64,000 nt of DNA from Gemmatimonadota bacterium. GTDB lineage: Bacteria; Gemmatimonadota; Gemmatimonadetes; Gemmatimonadales; Gemmatimonadaceae. Position 1 is the stretch's first letter. Every line of letters begins with the position of its first letter. The position numbers and the translations under genes are program-made. The stretch spans positions 62,001 through 126,000 of the forward strand of contig DAHUXM010000027.1 in assembly GCA_027307165.1 (NCBI GenBank). The letters run 5' to 3'. A model generated the notes under the pieces. The model was not told the DNA's origin. It did not search any database and saw only the letters and a list, made by a program, of their open reading frames with translations. Positions 39,314-64,000 of the stretch are shown here, piece by piece.

Positions 39314-39361
39314 GTCGCGCTACGCGTCCGCGCTCATGCAGCGACGCTCATGCAACTGCAT

Positions 39362-39724: not shown

Positions 39725-39951
39725 ACTGCCGCCCCTGTGCTGTGGCGCCGGCCGGCGACGACTGCGTTGAGTGCGTTCAGCAACGCAGCTGGATCTGCAC
39801 CGTCCCGCACCGCGGCGTCCTGAACGGAAACTGCACCACCGCAGCACGCATCTATCCCAAACTCGTTGAACACGTTTGTCGTGCCAGGGTGTGACTGTAT
39901 GACGTCGTTGACGACCGATGCGAAAGTTATGACTTCGTCTTGCAATGACAT
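39721..39951 (-). CDS. ScdA/RIC N-terminal (DUF542) single-domain protein
   Basis: ATG 39951 gives 76 residues; the TTG at 39987 is less likely. The motif FNEFGIDACCGG with a Cys-Cys pair is the hallmark of the DUF542 domain at the N-terminus of ScdA/YtfE (RIC) di-iron repair proteins, but the hemerythrin-like di-iron domain is absent. Such solo domains occur in NO-response loci. It heads the group with the cupin and mini-oxidase protein. On the minus strand TTGAAT and TACATT, 16 bp apart (about 39988-40018), could be its promoter. Confidence 0.82.
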   Translation of the reverse strand: MSLQDEVITFASVVNDVIQSHPGTTNVFNEFGIDACCGGAVSVQDAAVRDGADPAALLNALNAVVAGRRHSTGAAV

Positions 39952-40029
39952 GAGTGATGTCCGGATTTGATGAATCAATGTAGACAATTCGTGACCTGAT
40001 TCAAACTAGAGAACCGGGCGTTCCATCGG

Positions 40030-40069: not shown

Positions 40070-40176
40070 AAAAAAATCCGGGCTTGCCCGACTGTTTGCC
40101 GTATCCGGCGCCCGTACGTTCATCTCAATGCAGTTACTCACCCGCGCTCCACGCGAGCCATAAGCGAGGTAGTTGT

Positions 40177-42207
40177 ATGAAATCGTCGGTCAAGCTATAT
40201 GCGGCTGTCGGGTACATAGGCATCACCCTGAGCGGCCTTGCGTATGCCTGCGCGCCGAGTGTCAAGACGAATGCGTCCTCCGGCCTGCTGGCCGGTGACG
40301 CCGCGACTCGAACCTACGTGCCGCCAGGTTCGTATGACGAGTATTACGCCTTCCTGTCGGGCGGTTTCAGCGGCCAGGTAACGGTGTATGGGCTCCCATC
40401 GGGTCGTCTTTTCAAGCAGATACCCGTTTTTTCGCAATTTCCACAGACGGGTTACGGCTACAACGAGGACACCAAGGCGATGCTGACGACGACCTTCGGC
40501 CAGGTGCCGTGGGACGACTCGCATCACACGGAGATGTCGCTCACCGATGGCGTTCCGGACGGCCGCTGGCTGTTCATCAACGGTAACAACACTCCCCGCA
40601 TAGCCCGTATCGATCTCAAGAAGTTCGAGACCGAGGAGATACTCCAGATTCCAAACGCCGCGGGTGGCCACGCGTCACCGTTCGCGACGCCGGATACCAA
40701 ATACGTGGTGTCGGCGACGCGCTTCAGCGTTCCGATTCCACAGACCGACGTTCCCATCGACAGCTACAAGAAGAACTTCAAGGGAACCATCACGTTCGTC
40801 AGAGCCGACCAGCCAGGGAAGATGGACGTCGCCTTCCAGATCATGATGCCGGGATACGACTACGATCTCGGTCACGCCGGCAAGGGTCCGTCCGACGGCT
40901 GGTTCTTCTTCACGACGTACAACTCCGAAGAAGCGAATACGAAGCTCGAGGTGAACGCGTCACAGGCGGACAAGGACTACATCGCCGCGATCAACTACAA
41001 GCAGGCGGAGAAGTGCATCGCCGACGGAAAGGGAAAGAGTTTCGGCGGGAGCTACGTCCACAACTATATGAATCCGGCCACCGGGATCGCGACGAGCGAG
41101 ACGAAGACCGGTGTGACCATGTTGTATCCAGCCGATTGTGACGGTCTCGTATACTACCTGCCGACGCCGAAATCACCGCACGGTGTCGATATCGATCCGT
41201 CGGGCGAGTACATAGTTGCCGGTGGCAAGCTGGCTACCGTCATTCCCGTGCACTCGTACACGAAGATGATCAAGGCGATCGCCGACAAGCAATTCGAGAA
41301 GACGATCGACGGAATCCCGGTTCTCCGTTACCAGGCAGTCGTCGCAGGCGAAGTACAGAAGCCGGGCCTCGGCCCGCTGCACACCGAGTTCGACGGCAAG
41401 GGCAACGCCTACACCTCGATGTTCATCTCGTCCGAAGTCGTGAAGTGGAAGCTCGGCACGTGGCAGGTGCTGGACCGGATCCCGGTGTACTACTCGGTGG
41501 GACACCTGATGATTCCCGGTGGCGACAGCAAGAAGCCATGGGGCAAGTATCTCCTCGCGCTCGACAAGATCACCAAGGACCGCTACCTGCCCACCGGCCC
41601 GGAAGGATCGCGCTCGGCACAGCTGATCGACATCAGTGGCGACAAGATGAAGATGTTGCTGGACTTCCCGACGATGGGTGAGCCGCACTACGCGCAGGCA
41701 GTTCCGGCGAGCCTGCTGCAGCCCGGCTCGCTCAAGTTCCAGAAACTGACGGACAACCACAACCCGGATGTTACGACTGCGGAAGCCGCTGGCGGAATTA
41801 CACGCAAGGGCAAGCGCGTCGATGTGAAGATGATTGCGATCCGCAGTCACTTTGCGCCCGACAATCTGGAGGGTATCGAGCTCGGCGATACCGTGTACTT
41901 CCACGTCACCAACATCGAGCAGGACTGGAACATCGCGCACGGGTTCGCAGTGTTCGGTGCGAACACGTCCGGTGTCACACTCCCGCCAGGCGAGACGAGA
42001 ACCCTGAGATGGGTTCCGCAAGCAACCGGCATCTATCCGTTCTACTGCACGGACTTCTGCTCCGCGCTGCATCAGGAGATGCAGGGATACGTTCGAGTGT
42101 CCGCGCCGGAGATGCACGTTCCACTATCGGCGAACATCAGCAAGGTCGCACAGACGCAGAATGGCCGCATGCCTGCTGAGCATGGCGATCATGGCGAGCG
42201 CAGGTAG
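40177..42207 (+). CDS. nosZ: clade II (Sec-type) nitrous-oxide reductase
   Basis: ATG 40177 (GAGG upstream) starts a 676-residue protein with a Sec signal and a possible lipobox ending at Cys25 (GLAYAC), lacking the twin-arginine signal of clade I. CuZ ligands are visible as His116/His117 in DDSHHTEMS and in GGHASPF, KSPHGVDIDP, GPLHTEF and VGHLMIPGG. The C-terminal CuA domain has His588 (NIAHGFAVFG) and Cys624, Cys628, His632, Met635 (CTDFCSALHQEM). It reduces N2O to N2 in the periplasm. No nirS, nirK or norB is in the window, which fits a partial N2O-reducing rather than a fully denitrifying locus. Confidence 0.97.
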   Translation: MKSSVKLYAAVGYIGITLSGLAYACAPSVKTNASSGLLAGDAATRTYVPPGSYDEYYAFLSGGFSGQVTVYGLPSGRLFKQIPVFSQFPQTGYGYNEDTKAMLTTTFGQVPWDDSHHTEMSLTDGVPDGRWLFINGNNTPRIARIDLKKFETEEILQIPNAAGGHASPFATPDTKYVVSATRFSVPIPQTDVPIDSYKKNFKGTITFVRADQPGKMDVAFQIMMPGYDYDLGHAGKGPSDGWFFFTTYNSEEANTKLEVNASQADKDYIAAINYKQAEKCIADGKGKSFGGSYVHNYMNPATGIATSETKTGVTMLYPADCDGLVYYLPTPKSPHGVDIDPSGEYIVAGGKLATVIPVHSYTKMIKAIADKQFEKTIDGIPVLRYQAVVAGEVQKPGLGPLHTEFDGKGNAYTSMFISSEVVKWKLGTWQVLDRIPVYYSVGHLMIPGGDSKKPWGKYLLALDKITKDRYLPTGPEGSRSAQLIDISGDKMKMLLDFPTMGEPHYAQAVPASLLQPGSLKFQKLTDNHNPDVTTAEAAGGITRKGKRVDVKMIAIRSHFAPDNLEGIELGDTVYFHVTNIEQDWNIAHGFAVFGANTSGVTLPPGETRTLRWVPQATGIYPFYCTDFCSALHQEMQGYVRVSAPEMHVPLSANISKVAQTQNGRMPAEHGDHGERR

Positions 42208-42208
42208 A

Positions 42209-42817
42209 ATGATGTCACGCCTCACCCGCACGCTCACGGCGATTGCGTCGCTCGCTCTTGCAGGACTCTTCGTCCTTCCACTGTGGCGCGTGCAACTGGT
42301 CGCGCCGCAGTACCCGGAGGGACTGGGCATGCGGATCGGGATCAGCGGTGTCCACGGGACCATGCCGACGGATCTCGACAACATCAATGGTCTGAACCAC
42401 TACATCGGCATGAAGCACATCACGCCGTCCGCTATTCCCGAGCTGCGGTACATGCCGTGGATCGTTGGCGCACTGATACTGTTCGGGCTCATCGCGGCCA
42501 GCGTGGGCAGCAGAAAGTTGCTGCTCACCTGGATCGGCGGATTCGCCGTCCTTGCAGTGGCGGGACTGGCCGATTTCTGGCGTTGGGAATACGACTACGG
42601 CCACAACATCGATTTCGAGCACGCGATAATCAAGATCCCGGGGATGACATACCAGCCTCCGCTCATAGGCGTGAAGCAGCTGCTCAATTTCACGGCGATA
42701 TCCTGGCCGGATACCGGTGCGTGGCTGGCACTGGCTGCATTCGGGCTGGGTGTGCTGGCAGTCATCATGACGTTCAGGCAGCGCGCTCCGGCTGCTCAGG
42801 AACATGCGCACTCCTAG
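42209..42817 (+). CDS. nos-cluster integral membrane protein, unnamed
   Basis: ATG 42209 follows the nosZ stop by one base and is preceded by an AGG. The 202-residue protein has about five hydrophobic segments and a periplasmic motif INGLNHYIGMKHI plus FWRWEYDYGHNID, rich in His, Met and aromatic residues that could bind copper. Its position between nosZ and nosD fits the small membrane proteins of clade II nos clusters, where nosB or similar genes occur. I cannot assign it to nosB with certainty. It overlaps nosD by 14 bp. Confidence 0.7.
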   Translation: MMSRLTRTLTAIASLALAGLFVLPLWRVQLVAPQYPEGLGMRIGISGVHGTMPTDLDNINGLNHYIGMKHITPSAIPELRYMPWIVGALILFGLIAASVGSRKLLLTWIGGFAVLAVAGLADFWRWEYDYGHNIDFEHAIIKIPGMTYQPPLIGVKQLLNFTAISWPDTGAWLALAAFGLGVLAVIMTFRQRAPAAQEHAHS

Positions 42818-44081
42818 TTTGCTGCGCCCCGGCGCAGCCGCGCTGCTGTTGAGTCTTGCTGCCGTCACCACGCCAGCGCTGGCGTCGCCCGTGGGTGCTG
42901 CGCAGCAGGTCGTCAACGTGTCGCCAACCGGGCCGGTACGCAGCATACGGCAGGCGCTGACGATGGTCGCGCGCGGCGGCACGATCATCGTGCATCCCGG
43001 GGTCTACAGTGACACCACGATCGTGGTTTCGCTTCCGGTCACGATCATGGGAGAGAAGTATCCGGTCCTCGACGGCGACGGCGTGCGCCAGATAATGACC
43101 GTGACGGCGGATAGCGTCACGGTGCGCGGCATCGCATTTCGCAACGTCGGTGTCGCGTTCACGGAAGATCTCGCTGCGATAAAGGTCGTGCGAGCGCGCT
43201 ATTGCTCGATATCAGACAATCGCATCGACAACGGCTTCTTCGGTATCTACCTGCAGGAAGCCCAGTACTGCGCCGTGGTTTGCAACGTCATACGCGGCAC
43301 GCACGCGAGTGATGCCACATCCGGGAACGGTATTCACCTCTGGCACTCGCGCGACATAGTCATCCAGGGCAATCGAGTGTCCGGTCATCGCGACGGAATC
43401 TATTTCGAGTTCGTTCGTGCAACTCACGTTCATGACAATATCAGCATGGGGAATCTGAGATACGGGCTGCACTTCATGTTCTCCGACAGCTGCGATTACG
43501 AAGGCAATACCTTCCGGCACAACGGTGCGGGTGTGGCCGTCATGTACACGCACAACGTGCGGATGGTGGGCAATCACTTCACCGATAACACAGGCTCCGC
43601 CGCGTACGGCTTGCTGCTCAAGGAGATATCCGACAGCGAGCTCCGGGATAACATCTTTTCCGGTAATACGTCGGGGCTGTACGCAGATGGCGCCACGCGG
43701 CTGAACGCGCATCACAACACCTTTATCAACAACGGCTGGGCGCTCAAGCTCCAGTCCAGCACCGAGGATGCCACATTCACGGCCAACAACTTCGCTGGCA
43801 ACACGTTCGATGTGAGCACCAACAGTCGCTCGGCAAATTCGACTTTTCGCGGCAACTACTGGTCCGAGTATCAGGGATACGATCTCAACCGCGACGGTGT
43901 GGGAGATGTGCCGTACCGTCCAGTACGGCTCACGTCAGTCGTGGTTGCGAGATATGAGCCCGCGCTCATTCTGCTACGCAGCAACTTCCTGTTGTTGATG
44001 GACGCCGCGGAGCGAGTGCTGCCGGCTCTCACACCTGAAACGCTGGCCGATTCCGCGCCCGCGATGCGATGGGTAAAATGA
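42804..44081 (+). CDS. nosD: NosD, periplasmic copper-site maturation protein
   Basis: Encodes 425 residues with a signal peptide (LLRPGAAALLLSLAAVTTPALA). Right-handed parallel beta-helix repeats run through the body (GIYLQEAQYCAVVCNVI, GIHLWHSRDIVIQGN, GLHFMFSDSCDYEGN), and the family's NYWSEYQGYDLNRDGVGD motif is present near the end. NosD acts with NosFY to mature the CuZ site of NosZ. It overlaps the upstream membrane gene and nosF (ATGA). Confidence 0.95.
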   Translation: MRTPSLLRPGAAALLLSLAAVTTPALASPVGAAQQVVNVSPTGPVRSIRQALTMVARGGTIIVHPGVYSDTTIVVSLPVTIMGEKYPVLDGDGVRQIMTVTADSVTVRGIAFRNVGVAFTEDLAAIKVVRARYCSISDNRIDNGFFGIYLQEAQYCAVVCNVIRGTHASDATSGNGIHLWHSRDIVIQGNRVSGHRDGIYFEFVRATHVHDNISMGNLRYGLHFMFSDSCDYEGNTFRHNGAGVAVMYTHNVRMVGNHFTDNTGSAAYGLLLKEISDSELRDNIFSGNTSGLYADGATRLNAHHNTFINNGWALKLQSSTEDATFTANNFAGNTFDVSTNSRSANSTFRGNYWSEYQGYDLNRDGVGDVPYRPVRLTSVVVARYEPALILLRSNFLLLMDAAERVLPALTPETLADSAPAMRWVK

Positions 44082-44809
44082 AACGACCACTGCTACAGAT
44101 CATGAACGTGTGCAAGAGATTCGGCGCAATGGACATCCTGCGCTCGGTCGATCTCACCGTCGCGGCCGGCAGAGTCCTGGCAATCGTCGGGCCCAACGGC
44201 GCCGGCAAGACCACGCTCATCAAGTCGGTGCTCGGACTTACCCGGCCGGATGCAGGACGCATAACATTGATGAGCACCGACGTTCTGGGCGCGAACGCAT
44301 ATCGCGCCAGCATCGGTTACATGCCTCAGATCGCGCGCTTTCCGGAAAATCTAACAGGCGCGGAACTGATCGCGATGCTGAAGGACCTGCGCGGACCGAC
44401 GGCGCTGCTGGACACGGAGCTCATCGATTGCTTCGGGCTCGAGCAAGCTCTGGACAAACCTCTTCGCGTGCTGTCCGGTGGGACTCGGCAGAAGGTCAAC
44501 GCAGCAATGGCATTTCTGTTCTCGCCAGAGCTGCTGATTCTGGATGAACCGACCGCCGGTCTCGATCCGCTCTCGAGCAGCGTGCTGAAGGACAAGATTC
44601 TTGTGGAGCGCGGCGCGGGGAAGACGATCATGGTCACGTCACACATCATGAATGAGCTGGAAGAGCTGGCGGACGATGTTGCGTTCATGGTCGATGGCCG
44701 CCTGGCGTTCTCCGGAACACTCGACGATCTCAAGCGTGTAACGGCGCAGACGACGATGGAGCGGGCCGTGGCGGCGATGATGCTGCGCGACTGTGCGGAG
44801 GCGGCATGA
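44078..44809 (+). CDS. nosF: NosF, ABC ATPase for NosZ maturation
   Basis: I chose ATG 44078 because it overlaps the nosD stop (ATGA); ATG 44069 is in frame too. The 243-residue ATPase has Walker A GPNGAGKTT, signature LSGGTRQKV, Walker B LLILDEPTAGLD and the switch His in VTSHIMNE. With NosY it forms the transporter that works with NosD, in known systems delivering a sulfur species or copper for CuZ. Confidence 0.95.
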   Translation: MKRPLLQIMNVCKRFGAMDILRSVDLTVAAGRVLAIVGPNGAGKTTLIKSVLGLTRPDAGRITLMSTDVLGANAYRASIGYMPQIARFPENLTGAELIAMLKDLRGPTALLDTELIDCFGLEQALDKPLRVLSGGTRQKVNAAMAFLFSPELLILDEPTAGLDPLSSSVLKDKILVERGAGKTIMVTSHIMNELEELADDVAFMVDGRLAFSGTLDDLKRVTAQTTMERAVAAMMLRDCAEAA

Positions 44810-45594
44810 ACACGATGATGAAGGTTCTCAAGTATCAGGCGAGAGACGCCATCCGCAGCCGGTGGTTGATCGCCTATGCACTGTTCTTCCTCGTAGTGAC
44901 CGACGCGCTGCTGCGCTTCAGTGGCGATCCGGTCAAGGCTCAGCTGAGCCTCGTGAGCATCGTCCTCTTCGTCGTTCCGCTGGTCGCCATCGTATTTGGA
45001 ACCGTATATCTCTACAACGCACGGGAGTTCGTCGAGCTGATTCTCGCACAGCCCGTCGACCGTCGTCAGACGTACTGCGGCCTCTATCTTGGCCTCACAC
45101 TTCCGCTGATCGTAACCTTTGTCGTCGGTCTTGCGCTGCCATTCGTCTTGAACGGACTCGACGCGTTGGCCTGGGGCAGGCTCGCAGCGCTCCTCGTCGC
45201 CGGAACCGTTCTGACGTGTGTCTTCACAGCAATCGCGACGTCGATCGCCGTGAAGTGCGAGGACCGCTTGCGCGGCCTCGGAGCCGCGATCGGAGTGTGG
45301 CTGCTCGTCACCATCGTGTACGACGGATTCGTTTTGCTGGTACTGGCAGTTCTATCGGACTATCCGCTGGAGCGTGCGACCCTCGGACTGATGATGGCCA
45401 ACCCCATCGACATCGCACGGGTCGGCCTGCTGCTGAGATTCGACGGGGCCGCGATGATGGGTTACACCGGCGCCGTATTTCTCAAGTTCTTCAGTGGTTC
45501 CGCTGGAATGGTCGTCGCCACGCTTGCGCTGACGGCCTGGATCATCGCGCCAATCGCTTTCGGAGTGCGCGTGTTCCAGAGGAAGGACTTCTGA
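44806..45594 (+). CDS. nosY: NosY, ABC permease for NosZ maturation
   Basis: Encodes 262 residues with six hydrophobic segments, starting in an ATGA overlap with nosF. The N-terminal KYQARDAIRSRWLIAYALFF and EFVELILAQPVDRRQTYCG loop match NosY/ABC-2 permeases. It forms the membrane part of the NosDFY complex. The cluster then ends without nosL or nosR: the next gene 63 bp downstream is a plastocyanin. Confidence 0.92.
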   Translation: MNTMMKVLKYQARDAIRSRWLIAYALFFLVVTDALLRFSGDPVKAQLSLVSIVLFVVPLVAIVFGTVYLYNAREFVELILAQPVDRRQTYCGLYLGLTLPLIVTFVVGLALPFVLNGLDALAWGRLAALLVAGTVLTCVFTAIATSIAVKCEDRLRGLGAAIGVWLLVTIVYDGFVLLVLAVLSDYPLERATLGLMMANPIDIARVGLLLRFDGAAMMGYTGAVFLKFFSGSAGMVVATLALTAWIIAPIAFGVRVFQRKDF

Positions 45595-45657
45595 TCCGTA
45601 GTCAGAAGCACAGCAAGCACAGAAACTACGAAAACAACAATCTTACCGGATGGAATC

Positions 45658-46113
45658 GTGAATCGTTCAGGTCTCAAGTCGAGCTTTGTCGTACTCTCCC
45701 TGTTGGTGATCGGTGCGTGTGGGGGCGGGGAAAAGAAGGGGGAGAGCGAGGCGGGAGCTCCAGCGTCGTCGTCGCAGTCGTCGTCCCCGAGTGGCGAGGT
45801 GGCTGCTCCGACCGGAAAGGTGGTGGTCGTCGAGCTCAACAGCGACGCGCAGGGCAACTATTTCAAGCCTGCGGACTTCGAAGTGCATCGCGGTGACGTG
45901 ATCCGGTTCACGCTGAAGAGCGGAGTGCATAACGTGCACTTCCTGCCTGATTCCAATCCAGGCAAGACAAACCTCCCTCCGGCGAGTGATTTCCTTCAAC
46001 TGCCTGATCAGACTCTGGATGTCCCCGTCAACTTCGCACCGGGAAAGTACTATTTTCAGTGTGATCCACATGCAGCGCTGGGGATGCACGGACACGTGGA
46101 GGTAGAACGCTGA
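45658..46113 (+). CDS. plastocyanin/azurin-like blue copper lipoprotein
   Basis: GTG 45658 begins a lipoprotein signal (LLVIGACGGG, Cys21) and a Ser-rich linker. The cupredoxin domain has the type 1 copper ligands His in SGVHNVHF, then Cys-x2-His and Met in FQCDPHAALGMHGH. As a membrane-tethered electron carrier it could donate electrons to NosZ in place of the cytochromes of other clade II clusters, or handle copper. Its stop overlaps the CTG proposed as start of the ATPase. Confidence 0.88.
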   Translation: MNRSGLKSSFVVLSLLVIGACGGGEKKGESEAGAPASSSQSSSPSGEVAAPTGKVVVVELNSDAQGNYFKPADFEVHRGDVIRFTLKSGVHNVHFLPDSNPGKTNLPPASDFLQLPDQTLDVPVNFAPGKYYFQCDPHAALGMHGHVEVER

Positions 46114-49497: not shown

Positions 49498-51294
49498 TCA
49501 CTTGCGTGATGGATCTGGCGCCGCCGTAAGTACGAATGTTTTAACTAACGCGAATGCAAACAGCACGAGCAACACCGACTGAAGGGCAGTAGTCTCGACC
49601 GTCGGGAACAATCCCAGCCACGAGATGTCGGGTACGTGCGGCAGCGGCGTCATCGGCAGTACGTTGCCCTCCTGCAATTCCCGTATTCCGCGACCCGCGA
49701 ATACAAACGCCATGTAGTACAGCAGCAGGCTCGTGGCCGCGAAGAACGTCCGCATGGGAATCTTCACACCGAACCGGTAGAACAGCACGAATACGACGCC
49801 CAGCGCGACAGAGCCGGTGACAATTCCGAGCGTGAGCGGCAGCGCCGCGCCGTGCGCCTGACTGAACAGCGCCTGATAGAAGAGAGCCGTTTCCGCGCCC
49901 TCCCGGTATACCGCAAGGAATGCGATGAGCATCAATGCTCCGCCACTACCTTGCTCCAGCGCCAACGACACCTTCTCTCTGATGAACTTCTGCCATTTGT
50001 GCGCTTCGACCTTGGAGATCAGCCAGTAGCTGACGGAGAAGAGCACCACGACTGCAACCAGCAGCGATACTGCTTCGACGATTTCGCTGCTCGCCGGAAT
50101 CGCGGCGAGCGCAGTCTTGAGGATCACTGCTGTTATCGCGCTGGCGACGACACCGAGTGCTGCGCCGATCCAGATGGAGCGCAACCGTTTGCGGTTTCCG
50201 GTCTTGATGAGAAACGCGACTACGGCACCCACAACGAGTATCGCTTCGAATCCTTCTCTGAGGATTATGACGAACGATTGCCAGAACATCGTTACGGCAC
50301 CTTCGTCACTTCCACTTGCGAGCGCCACCGCGCGTGGCAGTGCGTCTGCGATTGCATTGCGAGCACGAGTCGCCGCACCCGTATCACCGCCGCGCACTGC
50401 GACTCTGAATTTGCCGAACGAACGCTCCAACGATGAAACCAGTCGGGGGTCCTTCGCGCGCGCGACAGTTTCGAGCGGCTCGAACGCGAGGTACGCGTCG
50501 AATGCCCCGTCGCTTGCCCTGCCGACGTTTCCGCGCTTCGCCGATGCGAGCGAGCTGTCAAGCAGTGCGACTATCGACGCCGCGGTGCTGCTGGCACCCG
50601 CCCCAGCGCCGGCAACCTGCGACGGCAGTCGCATCGGCTGTCCGCGCAGCTGGTACACATAGTTCACTACCTCCCATCGCTGCTGAGGAGTAAGCGACTC
50701 CCCGAACGGCAACATGGCGGTGCCGTTGATGCCAACCGACGTCACATTGTAAGCAAGCGTCGGAGTCAGATTGGGAGTGCCCGCCACCCTTCCGATCGCC
50801 GGCACAGGCGTGGACAGAGTCCGCGCCACGGGTCCGTCGCCGAGCCCGCGCGAGCCGTGGCACGAAGCGCAGCTTTCCGTGAAAATCTGTCGCCCGACGG
50901 CGGTATCGAGTGGTGCAGACGGCAGCTCCAGTGCGGCTGCATCGCCCAGGGCCGCAAGCAACGACGCCCGGTATTGCTCCAGCGCCGCCGGAGGTCGTTT
51001 CTGCTTCACGGCGCCGATCAGCTCCTGGAGTGCGGCCCTGGCGGCCGGAGCGTCCCGTCCCTCCAATCGGCCCGCGACCTCACTGGCGTTCTCCAGGAAT
51101 CCGGCGACCTCGGCGTACTCCTCCGCCGAGATGAGCTGGCCTCGCTTGTCGACCGCAAGCCCGTACTCGGAGACTGCGACCGATACGATGCTCGCCAACC
51201 TTCTGGCGGCCGTATCCTGGGATCTCATGGTTGCTGGCGTAAGCCATAGTGAGGCGAGGGCGCAAAGGCACCCTACCCGCCGCTTGCAGTTCAT
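49498..51294 (-). CDS. cytochrome c-FTR1 iron permease fusion
   Basis: Encodes 598 residues: signal peptide (about 1-25), a helical periplasmic domain, a cytochrome c domain with CASCHG (about residue 142) and axial Met in TAMLPFG, a second helical part, then seven-helix FTR1 permease with both iron motifs, REGFEAILV and REGAETALF. Yeast Ftr1 needs a ferroxidase; here the heme domain could oxidise Fe(II) for uptake. Bacterial fusions of this kind are known. A hairpin lies directly before the start. Confidence 0.92.
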   Translation of the reverse strand: MNCKRRVGCLCALASLWLTPATMRSQDTAARRLASIVSVAVSEYGLAVDKRGQLISAEEYAEVAGFLENASEVAGRLEGRDAPAARAALQELIGAVKQKRPPAALEQYRASLLAALGDAAALELPSAPLDTAVGRQIFTESCASCHGSRGLGDGPVARTLSTPVPAIGRVAGTPNLTPTLAYNVTSVGINGTAMLPFGESLTPQQRWEVVNYVYQLRGQPMRLPSQVAGAGAGASSTAASIVALLDSSLASAKRGNVGRASDGAFDAYLAFEPLETVARAKDPRLVSSLERSFGKFRVAVRGGDTGAATRARNAIADALPRAVALASGSDEGAVTMFWQSFVIILREGFEAILVVGAVVAFLIKTGNRKRLRSIWIGAALGVVASAITAVILKTALAAIPASSEIVEAVSLLVAVVVLFSVSYWLISKVEAHKWQKFIREKVSLALEQGSGGALMLIAFLAVYREGAETALFYQALFSQAHGAALPLTLGIVTGSVALGVVFVLFYRFGVKIPMRTFFAATSLLLYYMAFVFAGRGIRELQEGNVLPMTPLPHVPDISWLGLFPTVETTALQSVLLVLFAFALVKTFVLTAAPDPSRK

Positions 51295-51296
51295 AT

Positions 51297-51313
51297 CCGA
51301 TAAAAACTATCGG
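51297..51313 (-). promoter_or_regulatory. leader stem-loop directly before the FTR1 fusion gene
   Basis: On the minus strand CCGATA-GTTTT-TATCGG forms a perfect 6-bp stem with a 5-nt loop ending 2 nt before the ATG at 51294. It replaces a Shine-Dalgarno sequence and might influence translation initiation. The function is inference. Confidence 0.35.
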
Positions 51314-51360
51314 GTTACACTTGAACCGCTACTGCGGGCCTGTCCGGCCGCGAGACCGCT

Positions 51361-51783
51361 TCAAACAGGGGTAGCTCCGGGCCGCCGCCGGGCGCCGTCG
51401 ATCGTCCGCCAGATATTGTATACAAAACAGTATGCCGCGACGGCTGCCAGGACACCGCCCGTGCCTAGCACGAACGGCGCAGCCGGCACTGCATTTGGCG
51501 CGAGGCAGAAGCCAATCACCATCAGCGCCAGACCTGCATTGGCGAGCCACCATTGCACAGCTGCCACGCTCCGATTGTGCAACGGGTGCCCAGTGAAACG
51601 CGGAATTACATGATATGCGACACCGTAAATCATCATCGTCACAAAGCCCAGCAGATTCATGTGAACGTGCGCAGGCCGGTAGATGATGAGTTGCGGATGC
51701 ACTGCCATGGCGACGCCGAGCGTTACGCCGAGCGCGAGCCAGGTGATGCTTGCCTTGAGAAACGCCTTTACGAACCACTCCAT
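51361..51783 (-). CDS. mini heme-copper-oxidase-like membrane protein (H-x-H type), second copy
   Basis: Encodes 140 residues with four hydrophobic helices. Helix 2, AHVHMNLLGFVTMMIYGVAY then HVIPRF, is nearly the CcoN/NorB helix X motif H-x-H-x4-G-W-V-x3-G-x-x-Y-x3-P-R. It parallels the protein at 38849 but shares little outside this motif. It lies 66 bp before the FTR1 fusion gene, in the same orientation, suggesting a heme- or iron-linked role. Confidence 0.68.
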   Translation of the reverse strand: MEWFVKAFLKASITWLALGVTLGVAMAVHPQLIIYRPAHVHMNLLGFVTMMIYGVAYHVIPRFTGHPLHNRSVAAVQWWLANAGLALMVIGFCLAPNAVPAAPFVLGTGGVLAAVAAYCFVYNIWRTIDGARRRPGATPV

Positions 51784-51826
51784 GCTGTTCTTATGGGTAT
51801 GATGGGGATATATGTGTCAGGCTGAT

Positions 51827-52714
51827 CTACTGTGATGGCGATCGGACCGTCGCGACAAAGTCGTAGTCGGCGTGCACGATTTCGCCGCGCCAATATGGAG
51901 AGGGTTTGCCGTGAAGGACCCACTCCACAGTAGCCTTTGACGGAGTCATCATGTTGCCAGAGCGTTTGTACTCGCTGAAATGTCCGATCCACGCTGTGAG
52001 CACGCTGGATTCATCGACCATGCGGTAGCGCATTGCCTCGGTGCGTAGTATCTCGCCGTTTTCGCCAAAGTGAACATCGACCGATACACTGGTAGAGCCA
52101 TCCGCGAGCGTAGCGACAGCTGTGCTGTCATCCACTCCTCTCCACGAAACACCCGCACTTGGCAGAAGTGCGGTGGGGAACCAGGCGGCCTCACAGAGAT
52201 AGCGCATCAACTCGCCTGACGCCATTTCTGACGTACCCCCTTCATTTACAACAGGTACGACTGCAGCAACTTTACCATACATCCTGCCTTCGCCTGCGAT
52301 GTAGCCGTCGTGCACGTATGCGTTCAGCAGAGGCATCACGCGGATTCTCGCATCCCAGATAAAGCCAACAGGGTAGACGGAAACGTACTCGGTCGCCGTG
52401 AAGCGGCTCCATGAGCCAGGCCGCATGGCGAAGTCTCCGGTCTGTCGCAGTCTGGCACGCCGGATGAGCGGCTGGCCAGCTGTAAGTGCGAATTCAAAGT
52501 AACGGATCACCGGATTGGGCAGTCCCGCCAACTCATCACGCGAGAACGTGTGTGGTGCAGAGGTGTCAGTTCCAATATGTCGCTCCTGCTCGAGAGCCAT
52601 CACGTTGCGATGGGTGTCGCGGCGCCACAATAACGCGCCGACCGAACTTGCGATTATACATGCAAGCGCCACGACGCCAACTATGATGAGGCATAGCTTG
52701 ATCCAGTGTTGCAT
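51827..52714 (-). CDS. DUF6544-family membrane-anchored protein
   Basis: Encodes 295 residues with one N-terminal membrane helix (LIIVGVVALACIIASSVGALL). The soluble part has LAGLPNPVIRYFEFALTAG, RARLRQTGDFAMRPG, SRFTATEYVSVYPVGFIWDA and the conserved LMRYLCEAAWFPTALLPS, which match the DUF6544/DUF6920 proteins as I know them. Function is unknown. Its start is 67 bp from the operator copy at 52781. Confidence 0.7.
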   Translation of the reverse strand: MQHWIKLCLIIVGVVALACIIASSVGALLWRRDTHRNVMALEQERHIGTDTSAPHTFSRDELAGLPNPVIRYFEFALTAGQPLIRRARLRQTGDFAMRPGSWSRFTATEYVSVYPVGFIWDARIRVMPLLNAYVHDGYIAGEGRMYGKVAAVVPVVNEGGTSEMASGELMRYLCEAAWFPTALLPSAGVSWRGVDDSTAVATLADGSTSVSVDVHFGENGEILRTEAMRYRMVDESSVLTAWIGHFSEYKRSGNMMTPSKATVEWVLHGKPSPYWRGEIVHADYDFVATVRSPSQ

Positions 52715-52780
52715 GATTACGCGTGAGTAAGATGCTTCTGCTACCCACGATGCAACTTACACGACCAAGGAATTGGCTGG

Positions 52781-52820
52781 TGTCGGCATTTCCCTGAAGT
52801 AACCGCGGCGATCTCCTGAC
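52781..52820. promoter_or_regulatory. recurrent tandem operator, copy 5
   Basis: TGTCGGCATTTCCCTGAA (52781-52798) is followed by TCTCCTGAC beginning at 52812, 22 bp after the first TTCCC. The only gene starting beside it is DUF6544 on the minus strand (the rightward neighbour runs toward it), so this copy implies the motif can act on the minus-strand side. Confidence 0.6.
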
Positions 52821-52862
52821 AGAGAACCCGAGGCCACCGTCTCGATGAAATCCCGTTCCGAT

Positions 52863-53060
52863 CTAGTCTTCGCGTGCGTCGAGCGCGGCCAGCAACGAAG
52901 CCCACAATCTTGCGCGCTCGGCTGTGATCGCGTTTGGCGGCTCGAGCCAGTACCGTGTGGGAACAGAACCGATCGGCCAACCAGCGAGGTAATCCTGTAC
53001 TGTACCGGACACACCACTCCCACGCGCTTCATGCACTACGCGCGTGGGGTAGTGCACCAT
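52863..53060 (-). CDS. small hypothetical protein in the DUF2249 operon
   Basis: ATG 53060 has GGAGAG immediately upstream and gives 65 residues; ATG 53111 in frame lacks a ribosome site. The sequence (TRVVHEARGSGVSGTVQDYL, then SVPTRYWLEPPNAITAERA) is soluble and lacks cysteines. I do not recognise the family. It lies 72 bp after the DUF2249 gene in the same orientation. Confidence 0.5.
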   Translation of the reverse strand: MVHYPTRVVHEARGSGVSGTVQDYLAGWPIGSVPTRYWLEPPNAITAERARLWASLLAALDARED

Positions 53061-53132
53061 GATCTCTCCGCCACGAGCGGTGTAGCCAAGCCCCGTGGAA
53101 TCAATCAGCATACGAGAACATTGTGGTGGCGA

Positions 53133-53387
53133 TCACTTCCGGGCAATCTGCACGCGCCAGATTTCCGGTCCCTGCGCCTGATACGTCCACTCGAAAGTAC
53201 CGGGATGCTCGGCCTCGAGCTGATACCGAAGCGGACGCGGATCGTGGTCGTTGATGAGAATCATCGACTCCCCTTTCTTGAGATCCTCGAACGCGCGAAA
53301 GATGGTGGGATGCTTGTCGCGCGGGGGGATGACGCGAACATCGAGCTCTATCGGGCGGGCGGGCTGTGCTGCAGTTGACTGTGACAC
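53133..53387 (-). CDS. DUF2249 single-domain protein
   Basis: GTG 53387 follows AGGAG with 6-nt spacing. The 84-residue protein has ELDVRVIPPRDKHPTIFRAF, KGESMILINDHDPRPLRYQL and GTFEWTYQAQGPEIWRVQI, the standard DUF2249 pattern (TusA-like fold). Such proteins sit beside ScdA/RIC, NnrS and NO reductase genes in many bacteria and are thought to help in NO or nitrite stress. It follows the larger DUF2249 gene by 55 bp. Confidence 0.88.
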   Translation of the reverse strand: MSQSTAAQPARPIELDVRVIPPRDKHPTIFRAFEDLKKGESMILINDHDPRPLRYQLEAEHPGTFEWTYQAQGPEIWRVQIARK

Positions 53388-53442
53388 GTATTACTCCTGA
53401 TAGGAAAATTGGTATCTGTCGTGAATTGTTCGGTTCTGTCTG

Positions 53443-54297
53443 CTATGCGTTGCGCCAGATTCTCACCTGGACTTCGCCGGTCTCTGGTTCGTCTATGATG
53501 AAGTGAAATCCTCGCTCTCTCAGGATTGGTAGAAGGAACTGTGGGACACGCTGATTGACCTGGACCAGCATGCTATCCACCGGCAGCGTCTCGAGCGCTT
53601 CCAGCGTGCGCACCAGTGGCTCTGGAGGTTCGAGGTCGCGGACGTCGAGCCACACTTCCGTCCGTGCCGTGATACGGTTGTCCGCCGTGCTGTCGGTCAT
53701 CACGATTCGCGGTGCGACAGGTGCCGATGTAATTGCTGGTGCCGTTGCTGGCTCCGGGGTCTCGATTGGTTCCGTTCTTCGAAAGAACCAGACCGACCAA
53801 TCATCATCGGCATGCTGCTCGACCTTGTGCCCAAAGCCGCGCTTCTCCATCACCCCGAACAGCGGTACCGGCTCGAATGGGGCGCGTAAATGCAATACCG
53901 CATCATCGCCGAGTCCAGCGACGGCAGCCATGATTCGCGAGAATGGCTCACCTCCCTTCTTGAGCTCATCGCGCACGTCCAGCTCGACGACGGATGTGAA
54001 CGGGGGGAGAGGAGTCGAATCGTCCGTTGTTGCCGCGACGGGACTTGTGGGAATACTTGCGCCACCGATCCCGAGTACGCCGTTCAGCTCGTTTACGAGC
54101 GACTCGACGTTCATCTTGCAGACGCGAGCTGCCTGTGCCACCGTGGTCACCCGGGCCATTATCCGGCGCATCGGTGAATGACGCAATTTCGCCAGTTGCG
54201 GTGAGTGGCTCGCTATGACGTCGATCAGACGCTCGTCGCGCTCGAACAGGCTCTGCAGCTTGTCCGATGCCTGCACAGGGGTCATGCTCGTATTCAT
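53443..54297 (-). CDS. DUF1858-DUF2249-DUF2249 protein
   Basis: ATG 54297 overlaps the stop of the upstream membrane gene (ATGA). Of 284 residues, the first about 75 resemble a DUF1858/ScdA-like helical domain (ERDERLIDVIASHSPQLAKL then CKMNVESLVNELN). Two DUF2249 units follow: about 95-170 (ELDVRDELKKGGEPFSRIM) and about 205-284 (VWLDVRDLEPPEPLVRTLEA). The first keeps the VMEKRGFGHKVEQ segment typical of heme/NO-related DUF2249 proteins. It probably forms a redox or NO-response module with the neighbouring genes. Confidence 0.8.
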   Translation of the reverse strand: MNTSMTPVQASDKLQSLFERDERLIDVIASHSPQLAKLRHSPMRRIMARVTTVAQAARVCKMNVESLVNELNGVLGIGGASIPTSPVAATTDDSTPLPPFTSVVELDVRDELKKGGEPFSRIMAAVAGLGDDAVLHLRAPFEPVPLFGVMEKRGFGHKVEQHADDDWSVWFFRRTEPIETPEPATAPAITSAPVAPRIVMTDSTADNRITARTEVWLDVRDLEPPEPLVRTLEALETLPVDSMLVQVNQRVPQFLLPILRERGFHFIIDEPETGEVQVRIWRNA

Positions 54298-55700
54298 CCG
54301 GATGCCTTCGTGATTGTGGGTTGCACGCTCGCTGAACCGATGCCTCTGAACGATGTGGCAAGCGCCACTCGTGCTATCTGACTCACGAACAGCGCGACGG
54401 CGGACGCGACCAGGATCGCTGCAATCCGAACCACTGGTGAAATGCCCGTTACGACACCTGTCACCATGCCGAGAATGCCGACAGCGAATAGCGCGAGATC
54501 GATGTGCGCAACGAGCGGGGAATACAGCTGCGCCACGGTCGGAACATGCTTCTTCCCCATGTCGTTGCGGAAGCGCGCCATCCAGGCGAGGAACGGCACG
54601 ATCTTGTAGAACTGCCCGATCACATAGAGTGTGAGCCCGCCGAGCAGACCCAGCATCACGTAGGCAGTATCGAGTCGGCGGTGCTCCTGCCCTGCGGCCA
54701 GAACTACCGGCGCGAGTGCGGCGGTCGCTGCGAGAAAGATGAGAGCGGTGCCAGCATGTCGCAGTCCCGCGTCGAGTCGCGGTCGCTTGCGTGCTCTGAA
54801 AAAGAGCCACGCCTGTCGGAGAAAGCAGAATATTCCGCATTCAATCAACAGGAGTCCCATCCACACGACGACGCTGGACCTGACGCTGTGGCCGACCAAT
54901 ATTCCCGGTGCCAGAATCAGGACGCCAGCCGTGAGCAGCGTGAGTGCACGAGCCGTCCATCTTGTGTCGGCGCCGTGCGCCAGGAGAAACATCGGCAGGA
55001 GGCGATGTGATATGCCGACGATCATCACCAGAACCCATCCGATCAGCGCGACGTGCAGATGCGTGGCGAGCACCGTGACGCGCCAGTCGCCGAGGAAGCC
55101 GGTGTGCAGGTTCTGCGCGAGCATGGCACCGATGCCGAATGTCACAGTGAGAAACGAGAGTGCGATCACGATCGCACTCCATATCACGTCGCGATCGGCC
55201 GCTCTGCGCAGCGACAGCGCGACATTTACGATGAGACACGTGACGCCGATCGCGATCAGCGTGATTCCGAAGTTGCGGAGCATCGCCGAGCTGAACGCGA
55301 CTCCGGACGCAAACAGTGCGACACCGGGCGCGAAGGCGCAGAAGCTGACGTGTCCGGCGCGCTCCGATCTGATCGATACACCGAGTGCGACTGGCAGCAG
55401 TTGGTACATCGCCCCGAAGATCGTCATGCTGAGCCAGCCGAGCGTGAAGCAATGTGTCACGCCGGCGACATGCGGAGAGAGATACAGACCGGCGGCGAGC
55501 TCCGGCGCGATCCAGATGAGTCCGATGGACCCGACGCACAGGAAGAACAGCGCCGCCGCGAAGTGCTCGCCGGGAAGGCGTAGCGACGGAGCGCCTTCCA
55601 TTGCGAGCGCCGCCATCCCTGGCGCACGTGGCGGCGCCGACCGCGCCGACCAGGCTGGAGCGCGAGCGGCGATGCGTGGTACCGGTGCTGCGGCACTCAC
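54294..55700 (-). CDS. 12-helix NnrS/CcoN-like membrane protein
   Basis: Encodes 468 residues from GTG 55700 (GTGA overlap with Mrp) with about 12 hydrophobic helices. Two helices carry oxidase-like motifs: VTHCFTLGWLSMTIFGAMYQ and THLHVALIGWVLVMIVGISH followed by RLLPMF. The second matches the H-x-H helix X of CcoN/NorB; the full six-His set of a proton-pumping oxidase is not evident. It could be a heme- or copper-binding NnrS-type protein that protects against NO. It is in an operon with Mrp and the DUF2249 genes. Confidence 0.68.
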   Translation of the reverse strand: MSAAAPVPRIAARAPAWSARSAPPRAPGMAALAMEGAPSLRLPGEHFAAALFFLCVGSIGLIWIAPELAAGLYLSPHVAGVTHCFTLGWLSMTIFGAMYQLLPVALGVSIRSERAGHVSFCAFAPGVALFASGVAFSSAMLRNFGITLIAIGVTCLIVNVALSLRRAADRDVIWSAIVIALSFLTVTFGIGAMLAQNLHTGFLGDWRVTVLATHLHVALIGWVLVMIVGISHRLLPMFLLAHGADTRWTARALTLLTAGVLILAPGILVGHSVRSSVVVWMGLLLIECGIFCFLRQAWLFFRARKRPRLDAGLRHAGTALIFLAATAALAPVVLAAGQEHRRLDTAYVMLGLLGGLTLYVIGQFYKIVPFLAWMARFRNDMGKKHVPTVAQLYSPLVAHIDLALFAVGILGMVTGVVTGISPVVRIAAILVASAVALFVSQIARVALATSFRGIGSASVQPTITKASG

Positions 55701-56809
55701 TCTGCGGCTGCCTCGCCCTGCGCGAGCTGCCAGCCAAGCGCGTTGACGACTCTGTGCGCGATCGCGTCGAAGCTTCTGGCGAACTCGCTGTCGCCTCGCG
55801 TGATTACTGTCGGAGTGCCTGCGTCTCCCTCGCCTACCGCCTGCGCATCGAATGGCACCGTCCCGAGGAGCGGTACGTTCAGCGCGGTCGCGACGATGTT
55901 ACCGCCGCCGCTGCCAAACGCGCCCGACATGTTCTCCACGACTCCCAGCACCGGCACATCCAGCTTCGCAAACATGTCCCCCGCCTTCTGCGCCTCGACA
56001 GCTGCGAGCCGCTGCGGTTGCGTTACGACGATTGCACCGGACACTTCGACGGCCTGCACGAGACTGAGTGGAATGTCGCCCGTGCCCGGCGGCAGATCGA
56101 CAACGAGCACGTCGAGCTGCGGCCATTCCACTCCGCGCGCGAACTGCTTCACCGCCTTCGATACCATGGGCCCGCGCCAGATCGCCGGCGACCCCTCGCC
56201 CAGGAAGAAACCAAAGCTGATGAGCGTGAGTCCCAGCACTTCAACTGGAATTATGTGCTTGTCAGCGGTGACGCGAATCTGTTGTGCACCGTTCTCGATT
56301 CCGAGCAGGATCGGCACACTGGGGCCGTAGATATCGGCGTCGAGAAGGCCGACCACGAATCCCGCGCGAACGAGCGCAAGGGCAAGGCTGACTGCGACCG
56401 TACTCTTTCCAACGCCGCCCTTTCCCGCACCGACGGCGATGATGTCGCGGACGTTGCTCAGCCTGACGCGGTCCGCCCATGGGTCCGGTACTCCGGCGCG
56501 CGCGTGTCCTGAGTCCGGAGCGTGCGGAACTGGCCTGGTCGGTGGGTCCGGTTTGACTATCTCGACCGTGACGAGTGTCGCGCCCATTGCGGCGAGGCGA
56601 TCCCGGACCGCGACGCTGAGCCGCTCGGGGATGGACTCGTCCGTGGTGCGGAGTGCCAGCTGAACCTTCACCTGGGTCCCGCACACAGAGACATGCTTCA
56701 CCATCCCGAACGACACGACATCGCGCGCCAGCCCTGGGTAGTGAACGTCTCCCAGCGCGCTCCGTACCTTATCAACGTCGAGCTCGATATCTGGCTCAGC
56801 TGTTGCCAT
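55697..56809 (-). CDS. Mrp/ApbC-type P-loop ATPase lacking the Fe-S cysteines
   Basis: Encodes 370 residues: an N-terminal DUF59/MIP18-like domain (about 1-95, VRSALGDVHYPGLARDVVSF) and a MinD-type ATPase with deviant Walker A GAGKGGVGKST, switch I DADIYGPSVP, VDLPPGTGDIPLS and ENMSG. In Fe-S carriers the ENMS segment continues into a C-P-x-C motif; here it reads ENMSGAFGSGGGN with no Cys. It may therefore act in a non-Fe-S or altered assembly role. It is the first gene of the minus-strand NO-related operon. Confidence 0.9.
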   Translation of the reverse strand: MATAEPDIELDVDKVRSALGDVHYPGLARDVVSFGMVKHVSVCGTQVKVQLALRTTDESIPERLSVAVRDRLAAMGATLVTVEIVKPDPPTRPVPHAPDSGHARAGVPDPWADRVRLSNVRDIIAVGAGKGGVGKSTVAVSLALALVRAGFVVGLLDADIYGPSVPILLGIENGAQQIRVTADKHIIPVEVLGLTLISFGFFLGEGSPAIWRGPMVSKAVKQFARGVEWPQLDVLVVDLPPGTGDIPLSLVQAVEVSGAIVVTQPQRLAAVEAQKAGDMFAKLDVPVLGVVENMSGAFGSGGGNIVATALNVPLLGTVPFDAQAVGEGDAGTPTVITRGDSEFARSFDAIAHRVVNALGWQLAQGEAAAE

Positions 56810-61579: not shown

Positions 61580-62302
61580 CTATCTCCCTTGAGCGCGTGC
61601 TCGCAGCTTTGCAACATCAGGAATCCGCATCCGTCCGCGCGGGAGCGATTCCACCAGCCCGGTGCGCTTCAACTGCCGCATCGCGCGTGAAACCGATTCG
61701 CGGGCGCTGCCTATCTCCATCGAGAGCTCTTCCTGTGTACGATCGAGCTTGATCTCGATTCCGAACTGAGTGTGCGTGCCCGATCTTTCCGCATATCCCA
61801 CGAGCAGCATCGCCAACCGCGCAGCTACATCGTGGAACGCAAGCGTCTCCGTCACGTGGACGAGGTGTCGGAGTCGCTTGCCGAGTGCGTGAATTATCGC
61901 CTGGGCGATGTCCGGATGCTCGCGGTACATCGTTTCGAAGTCGTCACGCGCGAGAAACATCAGACGTGACGGCTCGACGGTAATCGCCGACGCGGGGTAC
62001 GGGCCCCCGTCGAAAAGTGGCAGCTCCGCCACGGGACGACCGGGACCCTCGATGTGCAGTACCTGCTCCTTGCCGTCCGGACTCGTGCGGTAGATACGCA
62101 CTCGTCCAGACTGGATCACGTAGAGGCCACGGCACGTGTCGCCAGCGGTAAAGAGCACACGGCCGGCGCCGAAGTCACGCGCGACACACCGGGCTGCAAG
62201 CTGGTGAATTGCCGAGTCTTCGAGTTCCGAGAAGATCGCCATCTGCCGGAGCAGCTCGGTGGTCCTGGCTGAAGACTCGTCAATCGATTTTTCCCGTATC
62301 AT
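61580..62302 (-). CDS. Crp/Fnr-family regulator, CRP-like recognition helix
   Basis: ATG 62302 overlaps the stop of the DsbA-like gene (ATGA). The 240-residue protein has a cNMP-type barrel (GRVLFTAGDTCRGLYVIQSG, RPVAELPLFDGGPYPASA), dimer helix (QAIIHALGKRLRHLVHV) and a C-terminal winged helix. The recognition helix reads ARESVSRAMRQL: R-E-x-x-x-R as in E. coli CRP, rather than the E-x-x-S-R of FNR, predicting TGTGA-type sites. FNR's Fe-S cysteines are absent. TGTGA-N6-TCAC sites occur at 63164 and 21652. The ligand is unknown. Confidence 0.9.
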   Translation of the reverse strand: MIREKSIDESSARTTELLRQMAIFSELEDSAIHQLAARCVARDFGAGRVLFTAGDTCRGLYVIQSGRVRIYRTSPDGKEQVLHIEGPGRPVAELPLFDGGPYPASAITVEPSRLMFLARDDFETMYREHPDIAQAIIHALGKRLRHLVHVTETLAFHDVAARLAMLLVGYAERSGTHTQFGIEIKLDRTQEELSMEIGSARESVSRAMRQLKRTGLVESLPRGRMRIPDVAKLRARAQGR

Positions 62303-63078
62303 GGGGCGCCGATTCGGAGCGGTGACCACGATGGAGCATCGCTGGCCGGGAAGCTGTCGATGGTGCTGTCCCGGAATATCTCACGCATATCTTGCAGACG
62401 ACGTTGCTCGATCGCGCTGTCAAACAACGCGCGGGTGGAGTCCGTGCAACCGTCTCCGACACAGGGGAGCGGCGGTACCGAAACGATTCTGCGGTTCCGG
62501 ACTCTGGCCATCGCGAGTGGCGTGCGCAGACGCGTGCCGTCCTGCAGCATCATGGTCGGCGTCCCGCGGACGTGATATTGCTCCCGGCCGATCCTGCCCT
62601 CCTCGGCGACTGCGGCACGTGCGGCCGGACTGGCGAAGTCACGCTCGAATCTCGCGAAGTCGAGATCGGCAGCGCGTGCCAGCTCCAGCAACACACTGCG
62701 GTCGCCGATGTTGCGGCTCTCGCCGAAGAAGGCGCGCCGTACCGCGAGATCGAGACCCATTGCGACATCCATCCCCTGCTGCCGCGCTGCCCACACGGCT
62801 TCGAACGCCGGCAGGGTGGTCGCAGGCCAGTCAGGTGCAGTGTAGGGGACGAAGGATGCGTCTGGCTCCTGTATCGCCGCGAGCCACCATTCCTGCTCCA
62901 GGACGTCGCGTGGCGGTGCCTCGTGATTGAACAGCTCCAGCGGGAAGAAACGCGTATGTGCCAGAACGCGGCCGGCGTACTCCGGCTGAACGCGATGCAC
63001 GCGGACAGCCATCACGTAGCACCAGGGGCAATAGTATTCGGCCCATTCCCACAATTCCGCGATCGATCGATCACTCAT
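62299..63078 (-). CDS. DsbA/FrnE-like thioredoxin-fold oxidoreductase
   Basis: ATG 63078 follows GGGAGG with 8-nt spacing. The 259-residue protein has the active site YYCPWCYVMA near the N-terminus, an inserted helical domain, HVRGTPTMMLQDGTRL with the cis-Pro, and a C-terminal tail SFPASDAPSWSP that recurs in many short stress proteins. No signal peptide is seen, so it is probably a cytoplasmic FrnE-type enzyme. It is coupled to the Crp-family gene. Confidence 0.85.
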   Translation of the reverse strand: MSDRSIAELWEWAEYYCPWCYVMAVRVHRVQPEYAGRVLAHTRFFPLELFNHEAPPRDVLEQEWWLAAIQEPDASFVPYTAPDWPATTLPAFEAVWAARQQGMDVAMGLDLAVRRAFFGESRNIGDRSVLLELARAADLDFARFERDFASPAARAAVAEEGRIGREQYHVRGTPTMMLQDGTRLRTPLAMARVRNRRIVSVPPLPCVGDGCTDSTRALFDSAIEQRRLQDMREIFRDSTIDSFPASDAPSWSPLRIGAP

Positions 63079-63291: not shown

Positions 63292-63603
63292 ATGGAGACA
63301 AGTAACGCAGCCGAAGGCGACATCTGGAACGCGCTACGTACCGTTATCGATCCGGAAATCGGTCTCGATATCGTTACGCTGGGCCTTGTATATGATGTCG
63401 CCTTCGGCACCGATTCCCCGGTGCCTGGCGATACTATCCGCGTCACGCATACACTCACCACGCCAGGATGTCCGATGGAGCGCGTAATCACGTCCGGCAT
63501 TCGCGCAGCTGTGGGTCGTGTTCCCGGTGTTGTGGCGGTGGAGACGAACCTGGTGTGGGATCCCATGTGGCACTCCGGGATGATCGCACCGGGTGCATGG
63601 TGA
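63292..63603 (+). CDS. MIP18/SufT-family Fe-S assembly protein
   Basis: Encodes 103 residues of a DUF59 domain: IWNALRTVIDPEIGLDIVTL, GLVYDVAF and the reactive-Cys loop LTTPGCPMERVI, ending LVWDPMWHSGMIAP. The conserved Cys in T-P-G-C-P is expected to carry iron or a cluster in Fe-S assembly. It stands alone on the plus strand behind a Crp-like site, opposite the DsbA-like gene. Confidence 0.88.
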   Translation: METSNAAEGDIWNALRTVIDPEIGLDIVTLGLVYDVAFGTDSPVPGDTIRVTHTLTTPGCPMERVITSGIRAAVGRVPGVVAVETNLVWDPMWHSGMIAPGAW

Positions 63604-63923: not shown

Positions 63924-64000
63924 TACAAACTCCGTTGATGTCCGTCGATGTCGCCTAGTGCGACATTGTGGTGAACTGCTTTGGTGTTCCAACCTGCACC

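Follow-up and report, generated by a model that had tools for sequence, protein, structure and literature searches.

The window analysed here, a 64,000-nucleotide stretch of a Gemmatimonadota genome (3.7 Mb, 98% complete, nearest named relatives also Gemmatimonadota), carries on its reverse strand an operon that opens with an Mrp-family ATPase, a 12-helix membrane protein named NnrSL in this study, a DUF1858-DUF2249-DUF2249 protein resembling DrpB of Thermus and a single-domain DUF2249 protein resembling DrpA (Table 1). These first four genes are the form taken in Gemmatimonadota by an accessory module of denitrification that is widespread and has been little studied. The GTG start of NnrSL lies within the TGA of Mrp, giving a 4-bp overlap; a second 4-bp overlap (ATGA) joins NnrSL to the DrpB-like gene, and the DrpA-like gene follows 55 bp downstream, the two being neighbours as in the DrpA/DrpB system. 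Pfam profiles recognise ParA/NUBPL (268 bits) and FeS_assembly_P, or DUF59 (30.5 bits), in Mrp; two stretches of DUF2249 (105.9 bits) and a DUF1858 match of 32.0 bits, 0.2 under its cut-off of 32.2, in the DrpB-like protein; and DUF2249 (106.8 bits) in the DrpA-like protein. Ratios of nonsynonymous to synonymous substitution rates (dN/dS) of 0.04-0.16 across the four genes indicate purifying selection on each of them.

A preliminary description of this DNA had reported both overlaps with a DUF2249 gene next, and the coordinates agree. Its list of the genes that follow is correct in order and direction, except that the protein without a family, given there as 65 residues, is 82 aa long from its first start, the shorter form beginning at an internal ATG. 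This 82-aa protein has a dN/dS of 0.49 and a homologue in the closest genome only. DUF6544 and the FTR1-cytochrome c fusion had been counted with the module; like the 82-aa protein, they do not stand beside the core in the relatives examined, the nearest genome excepted, and are better left out of it.

Table 1. Genes of the operon and related features of the window (positions count from the first letter of the window).
Feature	Position	Strand	Remarks
Mrp-family ATPase, 370 aa, N-terminal DUF59	55697..56809	-	Walker A GKGGVGKST intact, CxxC deleted
NnrSL, 468-aa membrane protein with 12 transmembrane helices (TM)	54294..55700	-	predicted heme-copper-oxidase/NO-reductase subunit I fold; invariant His only H83 (TM2) and H214 (TM6)
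DrpB-like, 284 aa, DUF1858 + DUF2249 + DUF2249	53443..54297	-	predicted TusA-like fold without the sulfur-carrying Cys
DrpA-like, 84-aa DUF2249 protein	53133..53387	-	two family-invariant His (PRxKH, NDHDP)
82-aa protein, no family assigned	52863..53111	-	weakly supported gene; outside conserved core
DUF6544/DUF6920 protein	51827..52714	-	
140-aa COX1/CcoN-like fragment protein	51361..51783	-	HxH motif; related proteins recur beside the module in other genomes
FTR1-cytochrome c fusion	49498..51294	-	
Crp/Fnr-family regulator	61580..62329	-	recurrent neighbour of the module
Stand-alone DUF59 (FeS_assembly_P) protein	63292..63603	+	conserved DPE, TTPGCP Cys; general NnrSL/DUF2249 partner in other phyla
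Copper nitrite reductase-like gene, edge	63955..64000	-	mostly beyond the window (L166:1956-2975)
nosZ-(p218)-nosD-nosF-nosY-cupredoxin cluster	40084..46113	+	Sec-type N2O reductase; genomic context
Stand-alone ScdA_N (DUF542) protein	39721..39987	-	adjoins nosZ

Conservation of the core and its link to nitrogen-oxide respiration

The preliminary description had named a gene order confined to close relatives as evidence against its reading; instead, the core is conserved across phyla. In the phylum sample of 298 Gemmatimonadota genomes, NnrSL matches were present in 53 and strong in 42, and a scan of named genomes yielded 80 NnrSL loci, with a bias towards relatives sharing two short peptides because a Gemmatimonadota-only alignment was used (the all-phyla alignment being too diverse). 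The order Mrp-NnrSL-DrpB-DrpA is kept in the same-genus loci L084 and L083, the latter with narGH near the module. Partner profiles were trained on hits in the surveyed loci, and with recall flattered in this way DUF2249 lay within 3 kb in 39 of the 43 NnrSL loci that had 3 kb on both flanks, and DUF2249 plus DUF59 or Mrp in 34; control windows 7-10 kb away, scored with the same profiles, contained DUF2249 in 1/26. Beyond Gemmatimonadota, where phyla were assigned by record titles, the corresponding figures were 20/23 and 17/23. The phyla with the module include Methylomirabilota, Bacteroidota/Ignavibacteria, Chloroflexota, Elusimicrobiota, Verrucomicrobiota and Myxococcota, in all about ten bacterial phyla and haloarchaea. 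Mrp counts outside Gemmatimonadota are inflated, as the Mrp hidden Markov model includes the DUF59 domain; a full Mrp ATPase adjoins NnrSL in Gemmatimonadota and in two NC10 loci, and the general partner of NnrSL is a DUF59 protein, not full Mrp. Since the Mrp-NnrSL-DUF2249 order recurs in many Gemmatimonadota genomes and dN/dS is low, the core arrangement is more than chance.

Independently annotated records contain the same parts, e.g. nar-drpA-drpB-hyp-protoglobin-NnrSL-DUF59 in Thermus, nor-hemN-DUF2249-NnrSL-DUF2249-DUF59-NnrS-nirK in Sinorhizobium and nos-NnrSL-DUF2249-DUF1858-Crp-Rrf2-DUF2249-DUF59 in a Mesorhizobium nos island. No published S. meliloti locus names were found for the Sinorhizobium cluster. 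Haloarchaeal plasmids bring together NnrSL, DUF2249 and RIC-type genes, and an Aliarcobacter plasmid has NnrSL-DUF59. Regulators are frequent neighbours: a Crp/Fnr gene occurs within 10 kb in 26/43 NnrSL loci, and a SufR-like regulator adjoins the module in many loci. RIC genes are found near NnrSL in L101 and L106.

The module is strongly tied to nitrogen-oxide respiration. Homologues of NirK, NosZ or NarG were present in 42/42 NnrSL genomes of the phylum sample versus 116/256 others (Fisher p 1e-13, in a test that ignores phylogeny and counts NirK hits below the curated cut-off). Taken alone, NirK was found in 30/42 versus 66/256 and NosZ in 33/42 versus 69/256, and the co-occurrence of NarG with NnrSL in the phylum was not significant (2/42 versus 11/256). 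Strong NorB matches (E < 1e-100) were present in only 3/42 NnrSL genomes.

Two further gene groupings were noted in the surveyed loci. A conserved protein of ~255 aa (cluster c3), with no Pfam or NCBIfam match, lies between two DUF2249 genes at L100:12778-13545 and in L102, L104-L107 and L111. A diverged NnrSL adjoins nosZ and an Rrf2-type regulator in Gemmatimonadaceae loci L067, L068, L071, L072 and L073, with no DUF2249 gene detected alongside.

Features of the module proteins

The preliminary description had presented the module as an NnrS-like, heme-like membrane protein, TusA-like domains and a cluster-carrier ATPase, and each of these labels requires revision. NnrSL is not NnrS (PF05940): it has no Pfam or NCBIfam match, a profile comparison with annotated NnrS gave a probability of 3.8%, and the genome's best match to NnrS, a mini protein, stays below the cut-off. 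Its AlphaFold2 model (55 relatives; predicted local distance difference test score 92, predicted template modelling score 0.89) has 12 long helices and places it in the heme-copper oxidase subunit I fold. The model aligns with CcoN of cbb3 oxidase (8smr_E) at Z 37.6 over 395 residues at 3.0 A with 12% identity, and with NorB of cytochrome c nitric oxide (NO) reductase (4xyd_A) at Z 36.6; a profile match to NorB (E 9e-8) is nearly full length. While the predicted fold is common to these proteins over the whole length, the six metal-ligand histidines (TM2, TM6, TM7 HH, TM10 HxH) are not all kept in NnrSL. Only H83 in TM2 and H214 in TM6 are invariant in 55 sequences, with histidine reaching at most 27% in TM7 and at most 51% in TM10. 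NnrSL lacks the TM7 and TM10 ligands and therefore cannot carry a canonical binuclear centre; for want of these metal ligands, its identification as a NorB-type NO reductase was rejected. When single sequences are compared, H83 falls opposite the TM2 histidine of NorB, a low-spin heme ligand. Heme may be bound through H83 and H214, the only two candidate ligands that are left to the heme-like character first proposed.

The DUF2249 domains are predicted to have a TusA fold (Z of about 10 with YeeD, SirA-like and TusA), so that the likeness to TusA holds for the fold and fails for the cysteine-based site. Neither the DrpB nor the DUF2249 alignment has a conserved cysteine, and a sulfur relay through TusA-like cysteines was rejected on this ground; the single-domain proteins have two invariant histidines (PRxKH, NDHDP). 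No solved DUF2249 structure was found by sequence search. The best full-length plasmid matches of the DrpB-like protein are Thermus DrpB proteins, at about 31% identity and 98% coverage. One and the same stretch is matched by DUF1858 and by ScdA_N, and in several genomes NnrSL adjoins a DUF2249-ScdA_N fusion; as ScdA_N is the N-terminal domain of RIC, these fusions tie the family to the RIC (YtfE/ScdA) repair proteins. A stand-alone ScdA_N protein lies beside nosZ in the present genome. The operon differs from RIC in having no hemerythrin di-iron domain.

DUF2249 proteins have been connected with denitrification in several organisms. In Thermus, DrpA and DrpB both affect nar transcription, nar and dnr become constitutive in drpB mutants, nitrate control is lost in drpAB mutants, and NarG activity in the double mutant falls to about one tenth of normal, from which the authors inferred a maturation role (Chahlafi et al. 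2018; PMC6282519). The Thermus proteins share domain architectures and denitrification context with those described here, and NnrSL and DUF59 lie just downstream in Thermus too; the gene order is unlike, however, the Thermus cluster has no Mrp, and in the present genome, which has no nar, the module is instead linked to nos and nirK-like genes. In the available text of the Thermus Drp papers, NnrSL and DUF59 are not mentioned (PMC6282519). COG4309 (DUF2249) was placed in NnrR/NsrR regulons, co-transcribed with nor in rhizobia, and relevance to NO reductase was proposed; the portion of that study consulted treats COG4309 without Mrp or a cofactor hypothesis (Rodionov 2005; PMC1274295). The Sinorhizobium cluster also has NnrSL. 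Denitrifying Haloferax mediterranei induces its DUF2249 genes, and one of these, in the nar operon, encodes a fusion of DUF2249 with an Mrp-type ATPase.

In Mrp/NBP35 proteins a CxxC motif holds the bridging [4Fe-4S] cluster and is essential in vivo (PMC6345978). The operon Mrp resembles Mrp/ApbC/NBP35 carriers in its P-loop domain with a deviant Walker A motif (GKGGhGK[ST]) and in its N-terminal DUF59, but differs in that ENMSGA passes directly into FG: about 11 residues including CxxC are missing in the window lineage. The motif is CxC in sister Gemmatimonadota and CPHC in two NC10 sequences, and in a tree of Mrp relatives each motif state forms one group (support 86/99 for the motif-less one). 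Of the four core genes Mrp nevertheless shows the tightest constraint (dN/dS 0.04 and 0.08), and a second Mrp of the genome is canonical, with CPHC. The lost motif, the strong purifying selection and the second, canonical Mrp together argue that the operon Mrp is kept for a role other than known cluster carrying, and not for the carrier function first assigned to it. The loss of CxxC from an Mrp under purifying selection is new here.

Interpretation of the module

The favoured explanation is that, when NO is produced, the module serves to build or repair at the membrane the metal centres on which nitrogen-oxide respiration, or its regulators, depend; it is held tentatively, at a probability of roughly 0.45. 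The module comprises DrpA (DUF2249), DrpB (DUF1858 with two DUF2249 domains, or DUF2249-ScdA_N), NnrSL and a DUF59 iron-sulfur assembly protein, to which the present operon adds a DUF59-ATPase of the Mrp family as its first gene. NnrSL could serve as a membrane anchor and possibly as a heme-bound sensor of NO or redox state through its two invariant histidines. The DUF2249 proteins, having a TusA-like fold without the TusA cysteine, may be docking or metal-handling adaptors and not sulfur carriers, and DUF59 and Mrp would contribute the assembly of clusters and a switch driven by nucleotides. NO would be the signal and repair the output of what may be a physical complex, as the preliminary description had supposed for the first three proteins. 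What the analysis itself establishes is gene order, conserved synteny, the association with NirK, NosZ and NarG, predicted folds, the histidine pattern and the loss of CxxC from a gene under purifying selection. Besides the synteny and this association, the RIC and SufR-like neighbours, the COG4309 regulons and the Haloferax induction speak for the explanation. A part in metal-centre assembly or repair is reasonable given the usual DUF59 third partner, the DUF2249-ScdA_N fusions and the low NarG activity of the Thermus drpAB mutant.

Several observations weigh against this explanation. Thermus DrpA/DrpB mutants alter transcription too, as a sensor would explain, and Thermus DrpA was located in the periplasm, a poor match for a repair complex in the cytosol (PMC6282519). 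The operon Mrp cannot bind the canonical bridging cluster, the standard low-spin heme histidine pair is not preserved in NnrSL, no full RIC gene was found in this genome, and the co-occurrence test takes no account of phylogeny. The preliminary description had also proposed an undescribed module that assembles or repairs a metal centre under NO. The nitrogen-oxide link, DUF59, the ScdA_N fusions and the Thermus NarG activity make that function plausible and support it in part, while a carrier role for Mrp is contradicted by its sequence. As to novelty, no literature on NnrSL or on its coupling to DUF59/Mrp was found in what is searchable (subscription journals being outside this scope), whereas DrpA/DrpB and COG4309 were already published, which leaves the module undescribed only in part.

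A somewhat less probable alternative to the favoured explanation is a signalling module in which NnrSL, DrpA and DrpB form a membrane sensor that responds to nitrate, NO or redox state and controls a Crp/Fnr-type activator, DUF59 and Mrp only loading the metal centre of the regulator or sensor. The constitutive and nitrate-blind Thermus mutants described above, the frequent Crp/Fnr neighbours, one of them in the window, and an oxidase fold without an active site would all fit a sensor. The Thermus double mutant, however, had wild-type amounts of NarG with reduced activity, which is not a transcriptional effect; a constant DUF59 partner is unexpected for a pure sensor, and nitrate is an unlikely signal in a genome without NarG. 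Dedicated maturation of one enzyme (copper nitrite reductase, nitrous oxide (N2O) reductase or nitrate reductase) in place of general NO repair is improbable. Different genomes place the module close to nirK-like, nos or nar genes, which favours it, but the linked enzyme varies: Thermus and Chloroflexota have nar there, rhizobia nirK/nor and Mesorhizobium nos. NirK and NosZ, moreover, contain copper and no iron-sulfur clusters, so that no one client fits.

A chance or purely lineage-specific grouping of unrelated housekeeping genes can practically be set aside. It would account for the downstream genes, in whose place close relatives have other genes, but for the core it is refuted by the synteny survey and by the selection on each core gene. 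A bolder idea, to which very little probability is given, is that NnrSL, DUF2249 and DUF59/Mrp constitute an unrecognised NO-handling membrane complex, possibly reducing or scavenging NO, that would take care of NO in denitrifiers which have nitrite reductase-like and N2O reductase genes and lack any known NO reductase, with the CxxC-less Mrp as its nucleotide-driven switch or motor. This genome appears to be such a case: it has NosZ and two NirK-like genes, and neither narG nor NorB was found in it, leaving the NO step unaccounted for. PF00115, which picks up NorB at 251 bits, matches only two aa3-type CtaD oxidases and two mini proteins.

Gemmatimonadota are counted among soil N2O consumers. 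DUF2249 has had two decades of links to denitrification without a mechanism and is now given constant partners, NnrSL and DUF59; an orphan domain becomes a defined module open to experiment in Thermus and Sinorhizobium. The conservation of an Mrp without its cluster site raises the question of what Mrp-family ATPases do beyond cluster carrying.

Wider neighbourhood

The stand-alone DUF59 gene of the window lies ~6.5 kb from the operon, and the NirK-like gene at the window edge scores 192 bits versus a family cut-off of 296. A search of the window for Fnr boxes gave 28 matches versus 15 expected, none at the Mrp start. A second copper nitrite reductase-like gene is found on contig 27, ~2.5 kb from another DUF2249 protein. 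At L167:5582-7579 a 665-aa fusion of membrane, copper nitrite reductase and cytochrome c parts lies near a 224-aa protein with a C-terminal DUF2249 (10109-10783), a second pairing of DUF2249 with a nitrite reductase in the same genome. Beside nosZ (window 38849-39987, reverse strand), a 154-aa COX1/NnrS-like mini protein is grouped with ScdA_N (DUF542) and a cupin, and in the Bacteroidota/Ignavibacteria loci L118, L119 and L128 mini COX1-like proteins paired with cupin-like ones likewise recur close to NnrSL and its partners. Besides the FTR1-cytochrome c fusion of the window, an FTR1-cupredoxin-4Fe-4S set for iron uptake was noted close to the module of Sinorhizobium (L081:18869-20609).

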